From positions 220,984 through 284,983 of the IMG/VR virus record IMGVR_UViG_3300046516_001816: a DNA stretch of 64,000 nt. One strand, written 5' to 3'. Below the pieces are notes generated by a model that saw only the letters and a program-made list of their open reading frames with translations, did not search any database and was not told where the DNA came from. A program made the position numbers and the translations under genes. How positions within the stretch are numbered: position 1 is the stretch's first letter; every line of letters starts with the position of its first letter. Below, piece by piece: positions 3,714-30,127 of this stretch. The DNA is from a virus.

Positions 3714-5126
3714 GTGAAAAACGAACTCACGATCAGCAAATTGATGATGATGGAAATGCCGGGTTACCGTGAGCAGTACCGACGTATCTATACGGGCTCG
3801 GGTGATCACGTCGGGATTCACCAGTTCGCTGAAACGATCAATACCCTGGATGACGTCGAAGTCACCGGGGCGATCGCCGCGCAGCACGTCCACAAAGTGT
3901 TGCGCTTTGCGGACCAACCCGAACCGAGTGCGCCGATTCCCTTTGGCTGGGACGCGCCACGGTATTCGTTCTTGCTGGTGGTGGAAACGAAAACGCCGAT
4001 GGGCAGCAAAGAGATCACGCATCTGGCTGGTTACACCGACCGCGTGGCGCCGATTGGCGAGCTGGAGTTTCATATCAACAGCACAGCGACCTGGCGAGAA
4101 ATGCCTAATCGCGACGGCAGCGGCTACACGCTCATGTCGCAAGATCACCTGCACATGGATCCGAACGGTCAAGCGCTCTCGGGCGGGAATTACTCGGAGT
4201 TGATGCGCCCGAAGGATATCTTCTCGCGGCTGTCGCTGGGTGACGGACTGGCCATGGAAGAGGTGATCGATTTGCGCACCCGTGTCTCGGCGTATGCGAC
4301 GCGTTCGGACCGCTACAATGTCGTGCCGTCGGCGTGGCTTTCCAAGCTGGTGGAAGCATATCTGTCGGCGCTGCAAGATGAACTGGCCGCCAATGAAAGC
4401 ACGGGGCTCTGGCACGTGTGTCAGGTTCACGCTGAAGAAACCCCGATCCGTTACAATCCGGTCCTCAGTGCCTTGGCGCAATTGGCAGCCAAACAAAACG
4501 GCACGTTCACCTTCGACGATCTGAAACTCCTCGATAGCGAAGTCGCTGAGAAGACGACCGTTGCCAACCAGGGTAGTGATGACGCCAATGCAAAACTGAT
4601 CTACTCGAACAATTATGAGGACTGGGACGTCGCAGTCGGGGAAGGCGAAGTCAGTCACGCTACGATTGCTTATGCGGCTGGCATGGCGTTACCACCCGTG
4701 ATGAATGAGGCGGGGTTGTCCAGTGCGCATTTCGTGGTGCTGTATTCGCCGGACAGTCCGGCGAGCGTCGAAGTGCGCATCATCACAGTGAGCCCGATCT
4801 TTGCAACAAGCGATCTGAAAGCCGCGATTGATTTGTTTGTGTACGAGTTTGAAACGCTGGTCTTGCCGCAACTCGCGCCGCGCGATTACGAAGGCATCGA
4901 AACGTTGTTCCTCGAGATCGACGCGGATCTCTACGGCACCACTGCGGTACGGGTGGCGCTGGATAAGCCCGAGAACACCAAGACGTTTTTGTTGCCCTCG
5001 TTTGCGGATTCGCTGCTGAGCCCGCTGCTGACCATCGAAGCCTGCAACACCACCAAGGACTTTATGGATCTCACGATCCTCGCCCGGGAGCTGGAAGCCG
5101 GACTGTCTCGGTTGACGGTGAAGTAG
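3714..5126 (+). CDS. unknown protein, 470 aa
   Basis: Starts at GTG 3714 behind the recurrent TAAACCAAGGA motif. A large soluble protein with no signal peptide, membrane segment or nucleotide-binding motif visible. Acidic and hydrophobic stretches alternate as in a folded enzyme or structural protein. Two consecutive hairpins (5134-5161 and 5166-5209) follow it, so it ends a transcript. It may be a non-virion jumbo-phage protein, but I cannot assign it. Confidence 0.75.
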   Translation: MKNELTISKLMMMEMPGYREQYRRIYTGSGDHVGIHQFAETINTLDDVEVTGAIAAQHVHKVLRFADQPEPSAPIPFGWDAPRYSFLLVVETKTPMGSKEITHLAGYTDRVAPIGELEFHINSTATWREMPNRDGSGYTLMSQDHLHMDPNGQALSGGNYSELMRPKDIFSRLSLGDGLAMEEVIDLRTRVSAYATRSDRYNVVPSAWLSKLVEAYLSALQDELAANESTGLWHVCQVHAEETPIRYNPVLSALAQLAAKQNGTFTFDDLKLLDSEVAEKTTVANQGSDDANAKLIYSNNYEDWDVAVGEGEVSHATIAYAAGMALPPVMNEAGLSSAHFVVLYSPDSPASVEVRIITVSPIFATSDLKAAIDLFVYEFETLVLPQLAPRDYEGIETLFLEIDADLYGTTAVRVALDKPENTKTFLLPSFADSLLSPLLTIEACNTTKDFMDLTILARELEAGLSRLTVK

Positions 5127-10266: not shown

Positions 10267-10629
10267 ATGTTTCAAAAGCTCCAGGCTTTATGGGCGCGTG
10301 TGCAACCACTCATCACCTTTGCGCAGACGCGTCGTCTGACAGCCAAGACCTTTAGCGATATGTTCACCAACTGGAACGGCGACGTCGATCCAGCACGCTT
10401 GGTGGGCTATGGTTTCGTGATGCTCGGTGGCATTCAGTTTCTGTCGCTCTCGCTCTACGACACCCTGAAAAATCACACGTTCAATTACATGGGGTTCTCC
10501 ACTGGCCTCGTGGCGATCTCCGGTGCCATCACAGCTGCGGCCGCTGGGGTGCGCTGGAAGCAACTGGCTGAAGCGCCGATGCCTCCGGCAGGTGACCCCG
10601 TGTTCAACCCGCCGAACGCGAATGGTTGA
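10267..10629 (+). CDS. two-helix membrane protein, 120 aa
   Basis: ATG after ACAGGAGATCCTTGCT. Two hydrophobic helices, roughly 47-65 (GYGFVMLGGIQFLSLSL) and 78-95 (FSTGLVAISGAITAAAAG), follow a soluble N-terminal segment; the C-terminus is proline-rich. A two-helix topology of this size is common among holin-like proteins, but this is only a possibility. The large structured RNA region starts immediately downstream. Confidence 0.6.
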   Translation: MFQKLQALWARVQPLITFAQTRRLTAKTFSDMFTNWNGDVDPARLVGYGFVMLGGIQFLSLSLYDTLKNHTFNYMGFSTGLVAISGAITAAAAGVRWKQLAEAPMPPAGDPVFNPPNANG

Positions 10630-11230
10630 TAGTATTTACCGCCGCCCAGTAGAAAGTTACTCGGGCGTTATGGTATGCGGAGAGAAATCTCTGGATCATG
10701 GAATGCGTTAGATAGGGTTAGACACTGTCTGATGAGCGGTGCAAGTCCGCAGCGGTTTTGGGGGGATGCGCAATGCTAACTCTTGAGGCCGCCCAGGTGC
10801 AACGCCTGCGAAACCTCGTGGCACAGACTCCCTGGGTCTGGTGGTGGTAGGGATGGCTTTAGCTCAGATACTGTCGGGATGACAGAAAAATGGCGGGCAG
10901 CGGAAGGAGAGAACGGGCCTTCTTTGATCCTTATCGGTTTAGCCGCGTTGTAACAGTCTGCTCACGAGTTACCGTGCTCGACTGCCAGGTTTACCAGACC
11001 TGGAACGGTACGCCCAGTATAGCTGGGAAGTTGTAGCCTAGTTGATGCTTCGGCTCCTAGGACGCAGCCTGCAAGAGATGATGGTGTTCGGTGCGTGGGT
11101 CATTCACGCAAGCGTCAGAGACTGGCTGTCTCTGGAACCAGGATAAACTTATCGAAACGGTCGTCTCCCCGGATGAGATAAGCGGAACTGCTTCACACCC
11201 GTCTCTTGTGGGATGCGGATCCCTTTTTTT
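10630..11230 (+). ncRNA. candidate large structured non-coding RNA (about 600 nt)
   Basis: The longest stretch in the window without a credible gene. It contains many clear hairpins in series: CGCCC-AGTA with TACT-C-GGGCG (near 10643), GAGA-GAAA-TCTC with a GNRA loop, GCGG/CCGC, CAGAC/GTCTG, CTGTC/GACAG, GAAGG/CCTTC, CCAGGT/ACCTGG, CCCAG/CTGGG, CCTAG-GC-TTCG-GC-CTAGG, GCGTG/CACGC and CAGAGAC/GTCTCTG. It ends in a perfect terminator at 11210-11230. The size and packing recall ornate phage/bacterial RNAs such as GOLLD and ROOL, but I cannot place it in a family. The 5' end is unknown; it may be processed from the upstream transcript. Confidence 0.75.
11210..11230 (+). terminator. intrinsic terminator of the structured RNA
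   Basis: GGGAT-GCGG-ATCCC followed by seven T. It defines the probable 3' end of the RNA and separates it from the oxygenase genes. Confidence 0.85.
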
Positions 11231-11251
11231 ATTTTGTCAACTTGCCATGAC

Positions 11252-11845
11252 ATGCAAACGTATACAAACGAAGCGTTGCTAGCCCGTATTCAAGTGATCG
11301 ACGGATTCTTTAGTGAGGCCGCGCTACGAGACCTGGAGTTCTTCTGGCGAGCGCCGATCTGGAAGTACGACTGGAAGACCAGTGGCACCGAGTATAACTT
11401 CTGGGGTACCCGACTGATGGGACTGGGGCAAGCCGAAACCCTCACCAACTGCGAGCACCAGTTTCAGGACAGTGCGATGAATGCGTTTCTGGGACGTGTC
11501 TGGTATGCGATTCGGGACCACTATCTGCCCGATCATGAACTCATTCGTTGTGCAGGAGCAGCGTACAACCAGGGGGCGGATGGCTTTATCCACACGGACA
11601 ATGCAGCGGAAGGTTACACGAGCATTCTGGTGTACACGCATCCGTACTGGGAAGCGCATTGGGGTGGCGAGATTGGCTATTACACTCTGGATCAGAGTGA
11701 GCTACTCACCATGATTGCCCCCAAGCCTGGACGCTTACTCATTGCCCCGGGGTTTATTCCGCATCGTCCGTTTGCCCCCGGTCGTAATGTCGATAGTTTG
11801 CGCGCCGCACTGAATTTTAGATCAAGACCAAAGGTAAACAAATGA
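11252..11845 (+). CDS. 2-oxoglutarate/Fe(II) oxygenase-like protein (paralogue A)
   Basis: 197 residues from ATG 11252; the longer in-frame start at 11213 lies within the terminator. Features of the double-stranded beta-helix 2OG oxygenases are visible: GFIHTDN gives the iron ligands H114 and D116, HWGGE lies at 136-140, PHRP gives the distal H171, and R184 could bind 2-oxoglutarate. The prolyl-4-hydroxylase-like branch fits best. The reaction would be an O2-dependent hydroxylation; the substrate is unknown. It overlaps paralogue B by 4 bases, so they are coexpressed. Confidence 0.75.
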   Translation: MQTYTNEALLARIQVIDGFFSEAALRDLEFFWRAPIWKYDWKTSGTEYNFWGTRLMGLGQAETLTNCEHQFQDSAMNAFLGRVWYAIRDHYLPDHELIRCAGAAYNQGADGFIHTDNAAEGYTSILVYTHPYWEAHWGGEIGYYTLDQSELLTMIAPKPGRLLIAPGFIPHRPFAPGRNVDSLRAALNFRSRPKVNK

Positions 11846-12465
11846 AACAATTGGGGAATCTGGAAGACGAGATCTGGGTGCTCGATGATCTGATTCCTAA
11901 GGATGTCCAGGCACGCTTATCCGCTACGGTCCAAAGTCCCGTCTGGGGGTATGATTGGCGCACGTCTTTGTCGGATCGCTATCCGGTCTGGGGTCGCAGT
12001 GTGGCTTCCCCGATGCGCGGGGACTTGAATGTCCAGGAGCAGTTACTCCAAGACACCCAGCAGCTCGACTCCGCTGAGATCTGGAAACTGTTCACGAAGA
12101 GCTTTCTGCGCGGACACAGTCTGCTGCGCGCCTTTGTGATTGGCTTTCACCATGGCTGCGAAGGCTACGCCCACGGGGACAACGTCGATCCGGAAACGGG
12201 CACCGAGATGGGTAACGGGCTGAACCTCACCAACTATCGCTCTACCATTGTGTTTGCCTTCAATGAGTGGGACGCCGCGTGGGGCGGGGAAATGGTGCTC
12301 TATAACCGGGAGATGACGGACATTGTCATGGCCGTTGAGCCCAAACCCTTTCGAGTGCTGAGCTTTCCGGGGTTCCTGCCGCATAAACCGAATGGTCCGA
12401 CCCGTGTCTCGGATCAGTTCCTGCCGCTTTTGTCGTATCGCTCCAAACAAATCCTTCGCAAGTGA
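11842..12465 (+). CDS. 2-oxoglutarate/Fe(II) oxygenase-like protein (paralogue B)
   Basis: 207 residues. Same fold signature as its neighbours: GYAHGDN (H111, D113), AWGGE (146-150), LPHKP (H181). Where A and C have an Arg that may hold 2-oxoglutarate (R184 and R187), B has a hydrophobic residue in the stretch DQFLPLLSYR. B may therefore bind a different ligand or be a non-catalytic partner (inference). It also has a longer loop after the HxD motif. Confidence 0.7.
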   Translation: MKQLGNLEDEIWVLDDLIPKDVQARLSATVQSPVWGYDWRTSLSDRYPVWGRSVASPMRGDLNVQEQLLQDTQQLDSAEIWKLFTKSFLRGHSLLRAFVIGFHHGCEGYAHGDNVDPETGTEMGNGLNLTNYRSTIVFAFNEWDAAWGGEMVLYNREMTDIVMAVEPKPFRVLSFPGFLPHKPNGPTRVSDQFLPLLSYRSKQILRK

Positions 12466-12472
12466 GACCACT

Positions 12473-13093
12473 GTGAGTATTATTCAAACGTCCCGTAAAG
12501 AGTTGGCCGACCGCGTACAAGTCCACGATGGACTGATTCCTGTCGGCCTGCAAGAACACCTCACCGCCCTGGTGACCAAGCCCATTTGGGCGCATGGCTG
12601 GAAGTCCAATGCCGAGAACGACAAGTATTCGTTCTGGCACGCCCACTTCGCCGGCGGCGATCTGCACAACCGTGTCAGCTGCGAAACCGAGCTTGACGAG
12701 AAGGGACCGGTGGCGGTGGCTCGCCTCTGGGATCTGCTGAGGAAGACGATTCTGCAAGGTCATGAGCCGTTGCGTGCGTACGGCAACGCCCACACGTTTG
12801 GCTGTGAGGGCTACATCCATGTCGACAATCGAGACAGCGACAACTATTTCTCGACCATCATCTATACCAACAAGAACTGGAAAGCCTGGTGGGGTGGTGA
12901 AACGCTCTTCTACGGACTGGACCAGAAGGACATTATCAAGGCCTGTGCCGCGCTGCCGTTTCGGATCGTGACCTTCCCGGGACATATCCCGCACAAGGCC
13001 AACGCGCCGGCGCGCGACGTGCCCGACCTGCGCACATGCATCGTGTTCAAGTCGCACCTGAAACAGGCCCCGGCACAACCGACGGAGGTGTAA
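12473..13093 (+). CDS. 2-oxoglutarate/Fe(II) oxygenase-like protein (paralogue C)
   Basis: 206 residues from GTG 12473, 8 bases after paralogue B. GYIHVDN supplies H116 and D118, WWGGE lies at 139-143, IPHKA supplies H174 and R187 may contact 2-oxoglutarate. All residues expected for an active enzyme are present. The three genes look like an old tandem duplication, because identity is mainly confined to the motifs. Confidence 0.72.
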   Translation: MSIIQTSRKELADRVQVHDGLIPVGLQEHLTALVTKPIWAHGWKSNAENDKYSFWHAHFAGGDLHNRVSCETELDEKGPVAVARLWDLLRKTILQGHEPLRAYGNAHTFGCEGYIHVDNRDSDNYFSTIIYTNKNWKAWWGGETLFYGLDQKDIIKACAALPFRIVTFPGHIPHKANAPARDVPDLRTCIVFKSHLKQAPAQPTEV

Positions 13094-24790: not shown

Positions 24791-24843
24791 GGTTAACAAA
24801 GCCCCAGTAGTCTCTTTTTAACTGCAAAAGGTTGGGATCACTC

Positions 24844-27054
24844 ATGACCGCACTGTTCCAAAACAAGAGCCGCATCGGCTCGCAACCGGCGACTCAGCTG
24901 GACAAGCTGGTGGGCTCGCTGCGTGAAGAAATGAACGGCCACGGTGCCGCATTCGCAGACCGCCACATCTCGAAGGCAGCCCTGTCGCTCGAATCGATCG
25001 ACGCATCGCTTGCCCGCGAACTCGAAGGCTCGCTCTCGCAGCTGAACTCCGCCCTCGAAGGCATCGTCAACGAGCACGGCCTGTCGGGTGACCTGACGGC
25101 GTCGCAACGTGACGCAGCTCTGGCTGCCATGGCCATGACCGGCGACATGGGCTCGTTCCTGCACGGCCAGATCAAGCACGACATGGTCAGCACGGAATCG
25201 ATGAAGTTCATCACCGTCGGTGGCGAAGACCACATGTACGAGCGTGTCAAGCCGGCACTCGAAGCGTACGACGAGAAGGAAAACAAGAACGCGGTGGTGT
25301 ACTCCGTCGCGTACAACTTGCAAGCTGCACGCCAGGACGAATTCGGCGAAGCCTTCTACCCGACCGTCGTCGTGACGCCGGACCAAGTGGGCTACACGGT
25401 TTCGATCCGCCTGATCGAAGTGTACAACGAGCCGAAGCGCGCAATCAGCGGCGCTCCCTCGCAGAACTTCGGCCGCAAGAACATCGTGCAAGCCGTGATC
25501 GATCCGTCGATCCTGCGCAACGACCAAACGAAGATCGTTCCGGTCTATCGCACGGAAAGCGCACCGTACTTCGTGACGAACGCGGCCGTCGAGCCGTACA
25601 ACGTCATGATGACGGACAACACGTCGGTCCTGACCGCACCGCTGGCAGTGGGCCAGAAGTTCTCGCTGCTCGGCCTGTCGCAAACGGAAGCGCTGCTCGA
25701 AACGGGTATCCTCGACGTCACCGACGCCATCGACAGCTCGATCTACCTGTCGGCTGTGTACGTCCAGTTCACGACCGGTGGCGCAACGCCGACCGTGGAA
25801 ACGGTGAAGTTCAACACGCGTCAACTGCCGCTCGCGTCGTTCAACTACGCACAGCAGAACGTCTACCGTCAGATGAACCTCCAGTTCAAGACGGAAACGC
25901 TGCTCATCGGCGCGAACACGGTTCAAGCTGACGGCGCTGCATCGACGATCCTCGCACCGATCGTGTCGGGCGACTACGAAGCGCGTTTCGGCTTCTCGAT
26001 GTTCGGTTCGGTGAACCTCGAACTCGGCGACACCGAAATCAACGCATCGAACGTCGGCGTGAACACGATCAAGAATTCGAGCGATCAGTCGCTGGATCTG
26101 ACGACGGGCACGGGCGCGACGCTGGCTGCGCTGTTCGCAGGCGCGAAGGTCGTGGGTTACGACCTGGAAGCTCATCGTACCAACAGCAACCGTCGTCAAC
26201 GCGGCCAGCTGCTGAACACGAACTTCTACAACCAGATCTACACGGTGCCGCTGCTGGCTCCGATCTCGATTCCGCGTCCGATGGCTGTGGGCGATTCGAA
26301 CGACTCGAGCGATCTGGCTTCGCTGATCACGGCAACGCGTATCCGTACGTCGAACGCCGCAGTCGACGCCATCTTCACGATGCAAGACCTGCTCGCGGAA
26401 ACGACGTCGGCGCTGAACACCGGTGCTGCTCCGAATGCTGCTGCCGACACCCCGGAAATCCTGGGCGTGACGCGCTTCATCATTCAGCCGGCGTACATGA
26501 CGAAGAACCTGGCAATCGACACGCAGACGGACAGCCTCTCGGCTCACCAACGCGCGGCCGACATCCAAGCTTCGCTCATCAACTGCCTGCGCGACATGGC
26601 GTACACGCTGTACGTGCAATCGGGCTACAAGGCAGCTGCGGACGCACTCGCAGGTGGCGTGGGTCCGGTGCCGACGGTCATCATCGGTACGGATCCGTAC
26701 ATCGCGCGTTACCTGATGGTGACGGGCGACCTGCGTACGCTGGGTGGTCAGTTCGACGTGAAGATCGTGTCGACGCTGAACGAACGCATGACGGGCAAGA
26801 TCGTGATGAGCTTCGGCGACTTCTCGAACGAGCGCGCTGGCGTGCCCAACCCGCTGCACTTCGGTAACATGGCATGGAAGCCGGAAGTCACGGTCGTCCT
26901 GCCGATGATCCGCAACGGCGCACAATCGAAGGAACTCACGGTCCAGCCGTCGTTCCTGCACGTCACGAACCTGCCGGTTCTCGGCGTGGTCAACGTCTCC
27001 GGTATCAGCAACATTGCGTACAGCAAGGTGCCGGTCAACTTCCATACCGTTTAA
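24844..27054 (+). CDS. major capsid protein
   Basis: 736 residues from ATG 24844 (a TTG at 24832 is less likely). Size, extremely biased codon choice (a sign of very high expression) and position fit a phiKZ-like HK97-fold major capsid protein. The first 118 residues are helical and Ser/Ala/Glu-rich and could be a scaffolding domain removed by a prohead protease; STE|S at 116-119 and SLE|S at 48-51 match the S-x-E type cleavage site known in such phages. An internal domain at about 271-465 is duplicated in the 33210 gene. Confidence 0.8.
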   Translation: MTALFQNKSRIGSQPATQLDKLVGSLREEMNGHGAAFADRHISKAALSLESIDASLARELEGSLSQLNSALEGIVNEHGLSGDLTASQRDAALAAMAMTGDMGSFLHGQIKHDMVSTESMKFITVGGEDHMYERVKPALEAYDEKENKNAVVYSVAYNLQAARQDEFGEAFYPTVVVTPDQVGYTVSIRLIEVYNEPKRAISGAPSQNFGRKNIVQAVIDPSILRNDQTKIVPVYRTESAPYFVTNAAVEPYNVMMTDNTSVLTAPLAVGQKFSLLGLSQTEALLETGILDVTDAIDSSIYLSAVYVQFTTGGATPTVETVKFNTRQLPLASFNYAQQNVYRQMNLQFKTETLLIGANTVQADGAASTILAPIVSGDYEARFGFSMFGSVNLELGDTEINASNVGVNTIKNSSDQSLDLTTGTGATLAALFAGAKVVGYDLEAHRTNSNRRQRGQLLNTNFYNQIYTVPLLAPISIPRPMAVGDSNDSSDLASLITATRIRTSNAAVDAIFTMQDLLAETTSALNTGAAPNAAADTPEILGVTRFIIQPAYMTKNLAIDTQTDSLSAHQRAADIQASLINCLRDMAYTLYVQSGYKAAADALAGGVGPVPTVIIGTDPYIARYLMVTGDLRTLGGQFDVKIVSTLNERMTGKIVMSFGDFSNERAGVPNPLHFGNMAWKPEVTVVLPMIRNGAQSKELTVQPSFLHVTNLPVLGVVNVSGISNIAYSKVPVNFHTV

Positions 27055-27264: not shown

Positions 27265-28446
27265 ATGAGTCTTGACTATTTTATTCCAGATGCGTTTTTC
27301 GGGAATACAGAGCTCAGTCAGATCAATGCCAGTGCGCACGCCGTCTTTTTAAAGGAGGACGTGTTTACGAAAACCACCCGGTATTTTAATTATACTGGAC
27401 AAGTGGTGACCGTAATTGAGCGCTCGGGCATCCAGCATGAGTTTGGGTCAATACCCAGCTACAGCCGGGCTGACTTTATGATCGTCACGGATTGGAAGAT
27501 TCATAAGTCCTTGCACTTGGGACTGGTGAATTTCCTCAAGGTAGAAAAGGAGAATGAAACCGCTGTGATTCGTAAGCTTCGGGAAGTGGTGCTTAAATAC
27601 CAGCCTACCATCCACGAAGAGTTCATCTTCCTCAGAACGGAAGAGAAGATATTATTAGGAGACTTGGAGAAGCATCGCAAGGAGATTTATGTCCATGATC
27701 ACGACGTCGTGGTATCGTTGTATCGGGGCATAGAAGCCGGACCTCATCCGTATAGTCCTCTGGGTCGTGCGTTGGATATGACCACCGCCATGGAGCGCGA
27801 TGCTGATAGCAAAGCGTTTTGTGAGACCATTCGGATTGTCGACAACCTGGGGACGTATGGAGATCGATTCATCAACCGGAATAAAAGTGTTTATCGAATC
27901 GAAGCCGTGCGGGACGCAACGCGTGAGGATGGCGTGTGGGTGATACGGAACAAACCGTTTGAAAACACCCGGTTGCCGTCGAAGGTGGGTTGGCGACGCT
28001 ACACATTTGAGGAAGCTGACGGAATCCTCGAATTGTACAAAACTTACGCAGAAGCGGAACATTGTGGTGATGCCGAGTATAAACGCAAGCAAGAACTGCT
28101 CGAACTTGAGACGAGGCTCACTCGGGAGAAGACAGAGCTTGCGGAACAGAAGCTGCGTCATCAAAGTCAACAGCAAGAATGGGACATGGATAAAGCACGT
28201 CAGTTGTCGCAGTTCGAGCGGCAACAGGCGGCTTATGCCGAAGAGGCATTCCGTGCTCGGCAGGAGCTGGATCGACAGAAACATTTCTACGAGCGGCAGA
28301 TGCTCGATCTGCGCAGCAGTGCGGAGCGTAGGAAGGATGTGTCGGACTGGCTGAAACACCTCCCCGCGATTATGGGTGCTGTCGGTGTAGCCTGGCTAAG
28401 CTACAAGACGGCCCAGTTTGCGGCCAATCGTGCGAGTGCCCCCTAA
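27265..28446 (+). CDS. coiled-coil protein with C-terminal membrane anchor
   Basis: 393 residues from ATG 27265. A mixed N-terminal domain (1-265) is followed by a long charged coiled coil (about 270-365, rich in Glu/Gln/Arg/Lys). A single hydrophobic helix near the end (LPAIMGAVGVAWLSYKTAQF) looks like a tail anchor. Its codon use is less biased than that of the flanking capsid genes, so it may be a recent insertion in the head module. Function unknown. Confidence 0.65.
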   Translation: MSLDYFIPDAFFGNTELSQINASAHAVFLKEDVFTKTTRYFNYTGQVVTVIERSGIQHEFGSIPSYSRADFMIVTDWKIHKSLHLGLVNFLKVEKENETAVIRKLREVVLKYQPTIHEEFIFLRTEEKILLGDLEKHRKEIYVHDHDVVVSLYRGIEAGPHPYSPLGRALDMTTAMERDADSKAFCETIRIVDNLGTYGDRFINRNKSVYRIEAVRDATREDGVWVIRNKPFENTRLPSKVGWRRYTFEEADGILELYKTYAEAEHCGDAEYKRKQELLELETRLTREKTELAEQKLRHQSQQQEWDMDKARQLSQFERQQAAYAEEAFRARQELDRQKHFYERQMLDLRSSAERRKDVSDWLKHLPAIMGAVGVAWLSYKTAQFAANRASAP

Positions 28447-28483
28447 AGAAACGATAAACCTACTTTTACAAGGAAGAACTGGT

Positions 28484-30127
28484 ATGGATGATGGACTGAT
28501 CTATCGGATCGAAGAGTATATGCCGAAGCTGAATCCGGCGATAGCGAACGGCTTCGCATCTTACCAGATGACCGAACACAACGTCGTCAAGTATATCGAC
28601 AGCGTGTTTCGTTCGGCAGCCAAAGGGTTCCCCGAAGGTTTGACCTACGAAGGCTGCCGGCGCTGTACGCCCCTGGAAGACTTCAACGAGTCGTCCAAGA
28701 AAAAGGGCAATAACAAACGTACCTTCGATGTCGCGGTCTCGTACACGTACATGATGAAATATCTGTTCAAGTACAAGGGCGAAGACATCACGCGCTTTAT
28801 CAATCTGCCGTTTGTCGGCGATGCGGGCTCGATCGTGATGAGCGGCTCGCGCTTCAATATCTCACCCGTGCTCTCCGATCGGGTGATCTCCGTGGGCACC
28901 GAAACCGTCTTCGTGCGTCTGCTGCGCGATGTGCTCACCTTCCAGCGGGTTCCCCAGAACATCAACGTCAATGGCCTGCGTGAACAGGTCAACGTCGCGT
29001 GGGCGATGATTTACCACAAGTCCGCGAAAGACAAGCGCATTCGTCCGACGGTCAAGATGCATTCGACCATGGTGCATTACTTGTTCTGCAAGTACGGTCT
29101 CATGAAAACGTTCGAGATGTTTGCGCGCTGTACGCCGGTGATCGGTGGTCCGGAAATCAACACCAATACCTATCCGGCTGACGAGTGGGTGATCATTGCG
29201 TCGACTCAGATCAAACCGAAGGGCTGCGGCAAGGGCCTGTATGAACCGACCAATCTGCGTGTGGCGGTGCATAAAACGGATTGGTCGCGCATGATGGTGC
29301 GCAATCTGATTGGGGGGCTGTTCTATGTCGCCGATCACTTTCCGGGTCGCGTGCGCGCGGAGTATATCAACAACACGGACCCCAAGTGGATGGATAACAC
29401 CAGCACCTGGATCAGTCTGATGGGCTGGGTGATCTGGGGCGGCAACCAGCACGAAGGCGTGTTGCGCGAACGGGTAGAAGAACACCTGCGATCGCTGGAT
29501 GAATACATCGACAATATTGTCCTGGACAAGTTCCGTCAGATTGGAGTGCAAGCCACCGATCTGTATCAGTTCATGGCAGTTATCATCGAGAACATCACCG
29601 ATATGCTGCACAAAGCGAGTGATAAGGTCAACAGCATGTACGACAAGGAACTGTCGGTGCTGTACTTTGTGCTCAAAGATATCACGAGCGAGATCTTCAA
29701 GCTGTACTTCAAACTGAAGGCGGCGAGCAAGAAGGAGCTCACGAAGAAGGATATCGACGAGCGCATGAACAAGACCATCTCGATGGGGCGCATTTTCAGC
29801 ATCACCAAACAGCACCCAGAAGTCACGACCATCAGTAGTTCGGGTGACAATATGGCGCTGAAGATCACCGGGGTGTTGGTGCCACAGTCGAGTAGTTCCA
29901 AACAGTCGGGTCGCAAGGACCGGGTGGTGATTGATGATCCGTCGCGCTTTCTGCATGTGTCGTATGCAGAGATCGGTGGCTATTCGAATCTGCCCAAGTC
30001 CGACCCGATTGGTCAGTCGCGGATCAGCGGCTGGTGCGAGACCGACCCCGATGGGCTCGTGCTGCGTCGTCCGAAGTTCTACGACATGCTCAATGCGTAT
30101 CAAGACCAGATCCGCAGACGGCGTTAA
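28484..30127 (+). CDS. unknown 547-aa protein; candidate RNA polymerase beta-like subunit
   Basis: ATG 28484 after ACAAGGAAGAACTGGT. No simple motif is decisive. The segment INLPFVGDAGSIVMSG and the following beta strands up to FVRLLRDVLTF recall the region near the N-terminal lobes of multi-subunit RNA polymerase beta. In phiKZ an RNA polymerase subunit gene (gp123) lies between the capsid and portal genes, as this one does. This is a tentative assignment from weak sequence resemblance plus synteny. Confidence 0.4.
   Translation: MDDGLIYRIEEYMPKLNPAIANGFASYQMTEHNVVKYIDSVFRSAAKGFPEGLTYEGCRRCTPLEDFNESSKKKGNNKRTFDVAVSYTYMMKYLFKYKGEDITRFINLPFVGDAGSIVMSGSRFNISPVLSDRVISVGTETVFVRLLRDVLTFQRVPQNINVNGLREQVNVAWAMIYHKSAKDKRIRPTVKMHSTMVHYLFCKYGLMKTFEMFARCTPVIGGPEINTNTYPADEWVIIASTQIKPKGCGKGLYEPTNLRVAVHKTDWSRMMVRNLIGGLFYVADHFPGRVRAEYINNTDPKWMDNTSTWISLMGWVIWGGNQHEGVLRERVEEHLRSLDEYIDNIVLDKFRQIGVQATDLYQFMAVIIENITDMLHKASDKVNSMYDKELSVLYFVLKDITSEIFKLYFKLKAASKKELTKKDIDERMNKTISMGRIFSITKQHPEVTTISSSGDNMALKITGVLVPQSSSSKQSGRKDRVVIDDPSRFLHVSYAEIGGYSNLPKSDPIGQSRISGWCETDPDGLVLRRPKFYDMLNAYQDQIRRRR

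Follow-up and report, generated by a model that had tools for sequence, protein, structure and literature searches.

Coding content and folding of the locus

What does a stretch of about 600 bases encode when no gene can be recognised in it? This question is raised by positions 10630-11230 of the window, the 64-kb stretch of DNA analysed here, which is the final part of a 285-kb virus record. A sequence-only reading had proposed a large structured non-coding RNA of a jumbo phage. Such a source is borne out by the length of the record together with genes for a phiKZ-type major head (capsid) protein (24832-27054) and for a member of an RNA-polymerase-like family (28418-30127). The claimed lack of a credible gene at 10630-11230 agrees with an ORF scan, in which just two short overlapping ORFs were found from the stop codon at 10629 up to the next gene. 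A conserved reading frame, named earlier as one outcome that would tell against an RNA, was sought in relatives and none is kept; translated similarity is short and scattered across all six frames, with no long frame. Judged from these comparisons, 10630-11230 is conserved as RNA and not as protein. Downstream, three tandem related genes (11213-13093) match PHROG 274, labelled 'DNA endonuclease V', and also give Pfam matches to 2OG-Fe(II) oxygenases that are weak and do not reach the cut-off; for these genes the PHROG label seems doubtful.

The region is highly structured, as proposed. As a whole it folds better than all of 20 dinucleotide shuffles (z -2.28), and its 3' half better than all of 200 (z -3.32). 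Both tetraloop types mentioned earlier, GNRA and UUCG, were located, in a GAAA hairpin (about 10679-10692) and a C(UUCG)G loop. Scanning the window RNA against Rfam gave no match at gathering thresholds and two at E ≤ 10, both due to chance. ARAGORN and Rfam detected no tRNA or tmRNA in the region, and the earlier statement that it has no tRNA, RNase P or intron core stands for the Rfam and ARAGORN models, those for group I and II introns included. Models for hammerheads, GOLLD, ROOL, RNase P and introns also failed to match when relatives were scanned along with the window, at gathering as well as at loose thresholds. The proposal of a large, structured and conserved non-coding RNA absent from Rfam is backed by homologues and covariation (see below), and we conclude that this jumbo-phage genome contains a real, unannotated, non-coding RNA of roughly 550 bases.

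Relatives in cultured and uncultured phages

A search with the capsid protein gave 28 related contigs. With the DNA of the RNA as query, homologues were found in several of 25 searched records of capsid-related contigs, some of them beside, or close to, the same upstream gene as in the window. A pattern taken from the best conserved stretch, CTGATGAG..GGTGCAAGTCC, served to search IMG/VR, and blastn with relatives as queries led to the named phages PaBG, FLC9, SURPRISE13, FLC6 and FLC8. The window RNA itself gave no blastn match among phages because divergence is too high, and no relatives were found via the 2OG oxygenase gene. The homologues called for by the earlier reading therefore exist, many in jumbo phages: relatives occur in more than 20 phage records, and in all five cultured phages the element sits in a gap with no annotated genes. 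It lies near or within tRNA clusters in PaBG and in contigs L091, L120, L127 and L129. The PaBG element is compact:

KF147891.1, 121564-121642: compact element of ~79 nt

Matches to the core pattern in bacterial genomes (L099-L101) and in L098 were attributed to chance, as the second hairpin is missing and the sequence is apparently coding. Most matches of relaxed scans (L112-L169) have no hairpin a and were likewise set aside.

Several relatives have features of their own. A compact double-T-loop hammerhead is present in L130 (contig 3300031862_000081, about 4354-4418, minus strand). In L149 (about 2166 downwards, minus strand) nucleotide 10.1 is C and, by eye, the stem III insert is roughly 280 nt and includes ACUCCCGUG with CACGGGAGU. 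The sequence GTTCTTTAACAA, common to SURPRISE13, FLC6 and FLC8, lies just upstream of the core in L104, L109 and L110; it resembles the boxA antitermination element of rRNA operons.

A hammerhead core in the middle of the RNA

Sequence and pairing indicate a complete hammerhead-ribozyme core at 10724-10957, in the middle of the RNA, which was not seen in the first reading. CUGAUGA, CGAA, A15.1-U16.1 and H17 = A are all present. The elements are as follows:

10724-10728, + strand: stem I, 5' strand ACUGU, with covariation
10729-10735, + strand: core CUGAUGA (C3-A9); N7 is U, A or C in relatives
10736-10750, + strand: hairpin a, GCGG(UGCAAGU)CCGC, T-loop heptaloop; paired 100%, 18/18
10751-10793, + strand: helix b, a variable hairpin in the branched stem II region; its length in relatives is 3-61 nt
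10794-10808, + strand: hairpin c, CAGG(UGCAACG)CCUG, T-loop-like heptaloop; 97.2% of cells paired in 18 sequences
10809-10812, + strand: core CGAA (C11.1, G12, A13, A14)
10813-10822, + strand: stem III, 5' strand ACCUCGUGGC, A15.1 first; two adjacent mismatches inside
10823-10941, + strand: stem III insert domain, 119 nt, with hairpin ACUGUC-GGGA-UGACAG
10942-10951, + strand: stem III, 3' strand GCCGCGUUGU, U16.1 last
10952-10953, + strand: H17 (A10952) and, from its position in the core, predicted self-cleavage at 10952/10953
10953-10957, + strand: stem I, 3' strand ACAGU

This order (stem I, CUGAUGA, hairpin a, helix b, hairpin c, CGAA, stem III 5' strand, insert, stem III 3' strand, A10952, stem I ACAGU) is common to every relative. 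C3 U4 G5 A6 N7 G8 A9 is invariant in 18/18 cores except at N7 (U/A/C). The search patterns account for part of this invariance, but SURPRISE13 was recovered by blastn via hairpin c only, and FLC9 by blastn. Position N7 is free in hammerheads, and it is the variable core position among the relatives. G12 A13 A14 is followed by A15.1-U16.1 in 17 of the 18, with G-C in L095. At H17 every member of the known set has A, C or U, even with G allowed, and in all of the first-found sequences the best-scoring 3' site yields stems I and III that set 15.1-16.1 and H17 correctly.

A covariation test, a kind of check proposed earlier, showed that pairing is kept. In the 18 trimmed cores 94.4% of cells are paired (62.8% when shuffled, ≤ 43.2% when slid), a percentage that is partly selected because stem I and III sites were chosen by maximising pairing; hairpins a and c, unlike these, were not picked by pairing score. 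Both sides have changed in 110 cells, compared with 34.6 in shuffles; for the covariation score the values are 0.833 in the cores and 0.209 in shuffles. Stem I is paired in 98.9% of cells, and each of its positions shows several Watson-Crick types; its variants include ACUGU/ACAGU, GCUGU/ACAGC, GCUCU/AGAGC, GCGGA/UCCGC, UCGCA/UGCGA, ACCC/GGGU, CAUUA/UAAUG and GGCUU/AAGCC, among others. Stem III is paired in 85.2%, and double changes occur at every pair of both stems; the stem III pair next to the core, for example, is U-A in FLC6 and C-G in SURPRISE13. Stem III varies widely in extent: in PaBG and L091 it is just a few base pairs capped by a short loop, and at the other extreme the helix encloses more than 100 nt.

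The window has a single occurrence of the core pattern, against 0.00 expected. Per-sequence shuffles of the downstream sequence gave p = 0.03 for the window, 0.001-0.05 for most relatives and 0.32 for L077; it is the joint covariation, not the single-sequence p, that carries the case. The hammerhead fold is the minimum free energy structure in PaBG, L091 and L095 and lies within 10 kcal/mol of it elsewhere; constraining the full window RNA to it costs 7.9 kcal/mol. For the covariance model, a closer ACAG at about 10824 is a rival, less canonical cleavage site in the window. It lacks U16.1 and was observed in neither L073 nor L074; we therefore prefer the long-range site.

Stem II is rebuilt from two T-loop hairpins

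On the evidence of the alignment, stem II is replaced by two T-loop hairpins and a variable helix, and the RNA is not a canonical hammerhead. Helix b folds in most relatives and is absent from L095 and L102. The closing pair of hairpin a, which holds nucleotide 10.1, is G-C, U-A, A-U or C-G, and 11.1 is constantly C. Since 10.1 covaries with the 3' end of hairpin a, and 11.1 is fixed, 10.1 pairs inside hairpin a. No stem II starting with a 10.1-11.1 pair is shared by the family, as several members have U, A or C at 10.1 and the classical pair with C11.1 is therefore impossible there. Its loss could impair catalysis, which casts real doubt on the predicted activity. Both heptaloops, in hairpins GGUUCAAGUCC and GGUGCAAGUCC, fit the T-loop pattern U-N-N-R-A; the heptaloops UUCAAGU and UUCGAGU are those of tRNA T-arms.

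The 5' end, the stem III insert and the 3' domain

Outside the core, the following features were identified:

10674-10677, + strand: TATG, candidate phiKZ-type late promoter, with a predicted start at G10677
10679-10692, + strand: 5' hairpin GGAGA(GAAA)UCUCU; a hairpin of differing sequence is at the same place in L073, L074 and L075
11013-11027, + strand: hairpin CCCAG(UAUAG)CUGGG, directly 5' of AAGUUGU
11030-11068, + strand: helix alpha, GUUGU...GCAGC, ending in conserved GACGCAGCCUG; outer 5 bp invariant
11072-11208, + strand: helix beta, CAAGAGAUG (11072-11080) with CGUCUCUUG (11200-11208)
11210-11230, + strand: conserved GGGAUGCGG motif and short intrinsic terminator

TATGCG occurs at the same place in L073, L074 and L075. 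The phiKZ non-virion RNA polymerase requires TATG, of which the final G is the start (PMC4666361). A sigma-70-type promoter match falls within the upstream gene and does not surpass those in shuffles.

Insert hairpins of the type ACUGUC-GNGA-GACAG are also found in L073, L074 and L075. In these three and in the window the hairpin repeats the 5' strand of stem I plus C3. Judged from this repeat, it is a possible alternative partner able to switch the predicted ribozyme off.

The succession of a hairpin, AAGUUGU..ACGCAGCCUG (helix alpha) and the long-range helix beta is common to the window clade, L076-L081 and FLC9, and in the other large relatives the hairpin just before AAGUUGU differs in sequence (by eye). 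Helix alpha is largely invariant. Helix beta shows strong covariation, with 11/12 pairs changed on both sides in seven relatives, and the helices of the 3' domain together have 22 double-change cells, compared with 8.8 in shuffles. The 3' regions of other lineages are different, so the domain that follows the ribozyme is specific to the lineage. A second such region, GGAAT.TCCTGCTG...ATGAATTGCGGA, seems common to L120, L127, L129, L091 and L103, the compact members of the tRNA-cluster group. The RNA had been said to end at a perfect intrinsic terminator. There is a terminator-like site at 11210-11230 (GGGAT-GCGG-ATCCC-T7), and the end in L073 is similar, but 'perfect' is generous since the stem is short (5 bp).

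Proposed maturation of a 3' RNA and alternative explanations

In hammerhead cores the backbone is cleaved after position 17 through internal transfer, and the ends produced are a 2',3'-cyclic phosphate and a 5'-OH. The reading that we favour, with a probability of roughly 80%, is that a self-cleaving core of this type matures the ~270-nt 3' RNA of a ~550-nt non-coding RNA. This RNA (about 10677-11225) would be built round the hammerhead-type core, with stem II split into two T-loop hairpins and the 119-nt insert held in stem III. Transcription would begin at TATG (10674-10677), a late promoter of the phiKZ kind, and from such a start the ~550-nt transcript would thus be cut to pieces of ~276 and ~270 nt. 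The RNA would break its own backbone between 10952 and 10953; the upstream piece would keep the cyclic phosphate and the downstream piece, carrying the conserved 3' domain and ending at the terminator, would receive the 5'-OH. The most likely role of the hammerhead would be to mature the 3' RNA, separating it from upstream messages.

That a structured stretch merely happens to contain CUGAUGA and CGAA, and is no ribozyme, fits a single-sequence p of only 0.03 for the window; it is contradicted by covariation over 18 sequences from many phage groups and by a closing pair in hairpin a that takes all four Watson-Crick types, and is scarcely credible. Considerably more plausible, though still unlikely, is an mRNA processing site, at which the hammerhead cuts polycistronic phage messages between genes, setting their ends and stability, and the remaining RNA is incidental. 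The core lies a few bases past a stop codon in L095 and L130, and in L130 the 3' strand of stem I, GGAGGU, doubles as a good ribosome-binding site for the ORF that follows; from its position, predicted cleavage there would set an mRNA 5' end just before this likely ribosome-binding site. Hammerheads that flank phage genes have been described (PMC3088659). However, the window-clade RNA is closed by a terminator, and a processing site has no need of the strongly covarying ~270-nt 3' domain that follows the cut.

The hammerhead core may instead be a folded scaffold or regulated switch that is mostly uncut, the RNA working intact, for example in GOLLD- or ROOL-like assembly. Large size, extensive structure and conserved insert and 3' domains would suit this, as would the tRNA clusters around some relatives, a setting also seen for GOLLD and ROOL (PMC12286853), and the window-clade insert hairpin, whose repeated ACUGUC could trap an inactive form. 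Yet conservation falls on the bases essential to the hammerhead reaction (G8, G12, A15.1-U16.1, non-G at 17), with drift at N7; G12 and H17 would be dispensable in a pure scaffold, and GOLLD and ROOL gave no Rfam match. We consider an intact scaffold improbable. We also put forward tentatively, as an idea we hold less likely than not to be correct, that the split-stem-II hammerhead is an integral and regulated part of a new kind of large phage RNA machine, of ~550 nt, in which the lineage-specific 3' domains are functional RNAs. The double T-loop module would then be a tertiary clamp in place of stem II, and the stem III insert a switch or sensor.

Relation to known RNAs and significance

The RNA shares with type I hammerheads the CUGANGA and GAA core, A15.1-U16.1, an H17 that is not G, stems I and III, and 5' and 3' ends that exit through stem I. 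It differs in that stem II consists of two T-loop hairpins and an optional helix, 10.1 pairs in hairpin a rather than with 11.1, and stem III may hold more than 100 nt. The T-loop hairpins are alike in pattern to those of tRNA and cobalamin riboswitches; here they replace a ribozyme stem II. Rfam hammerhead models matched neither the window nor its relatives at E ≤ 5 to 10. Because stem II is rebuilt and both the 10.1-11.1 pair and an Rfam match are lacking, we do not file the RNA as a canonical hammerhead; it appears to be a hammerhead variant with a rebuilt stem II inside a previously unannotated large phage RNA. Natural hammerheads include short stems II, pseudoknots and core variants, according to the portion of Perreault et al. 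(2011, PMC3088659) covered here. That portion makes no mention of a branched or T-loop stem II; the literature covered was open-access, and an earlier report elsewhere is possible.

RAGATH-1 (RF03152) is likewise a phage-associated type I hammerhead variant; its stem II is very short, and a hairpin lies upstream, near stem I. Its model matched no member of the present family. In the same Rfam scan it matched two variants in phage contig L117 (E = 0.0097 and 0.028, below the gathering score), which served as a positive control. Weak matches lie close together in L117 (582-661, 1069-1183 and 1696-1775), namely twister-P1 and the two RAGATH-1 hammerheads.

GOLLD and ROOL are also large ornate phage RNAs, of unknown function and often near tRNA islands (PMC12286853); the term 'self-cleav' is absent from that structural study. 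The likeness to them drawn earlier comes down to size, phage context and tRNA clusters in some relatives, and their Rfam models match neither the window nor its relatives. The suggestion of a new class is right in that this large RNA was unannotated, and only partly right because its conserved heart is a variant of the hammerhead, a known ribozyme class.

Few ribozymes have been studied as well as the hammerhead, yet its double-T-loop branch escapes current covariance models, although it occurs across cultured as well as uncultured phages, of which many are jumbo. With PaBG growing on P. aeruginosa PAO1 and its compact element of ~79 nt, the predicted activity is testable by ordinary methods. 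The finding bears on two questions: what purpose phage hammerheads serve, and what role large ornate phage RNAs play.
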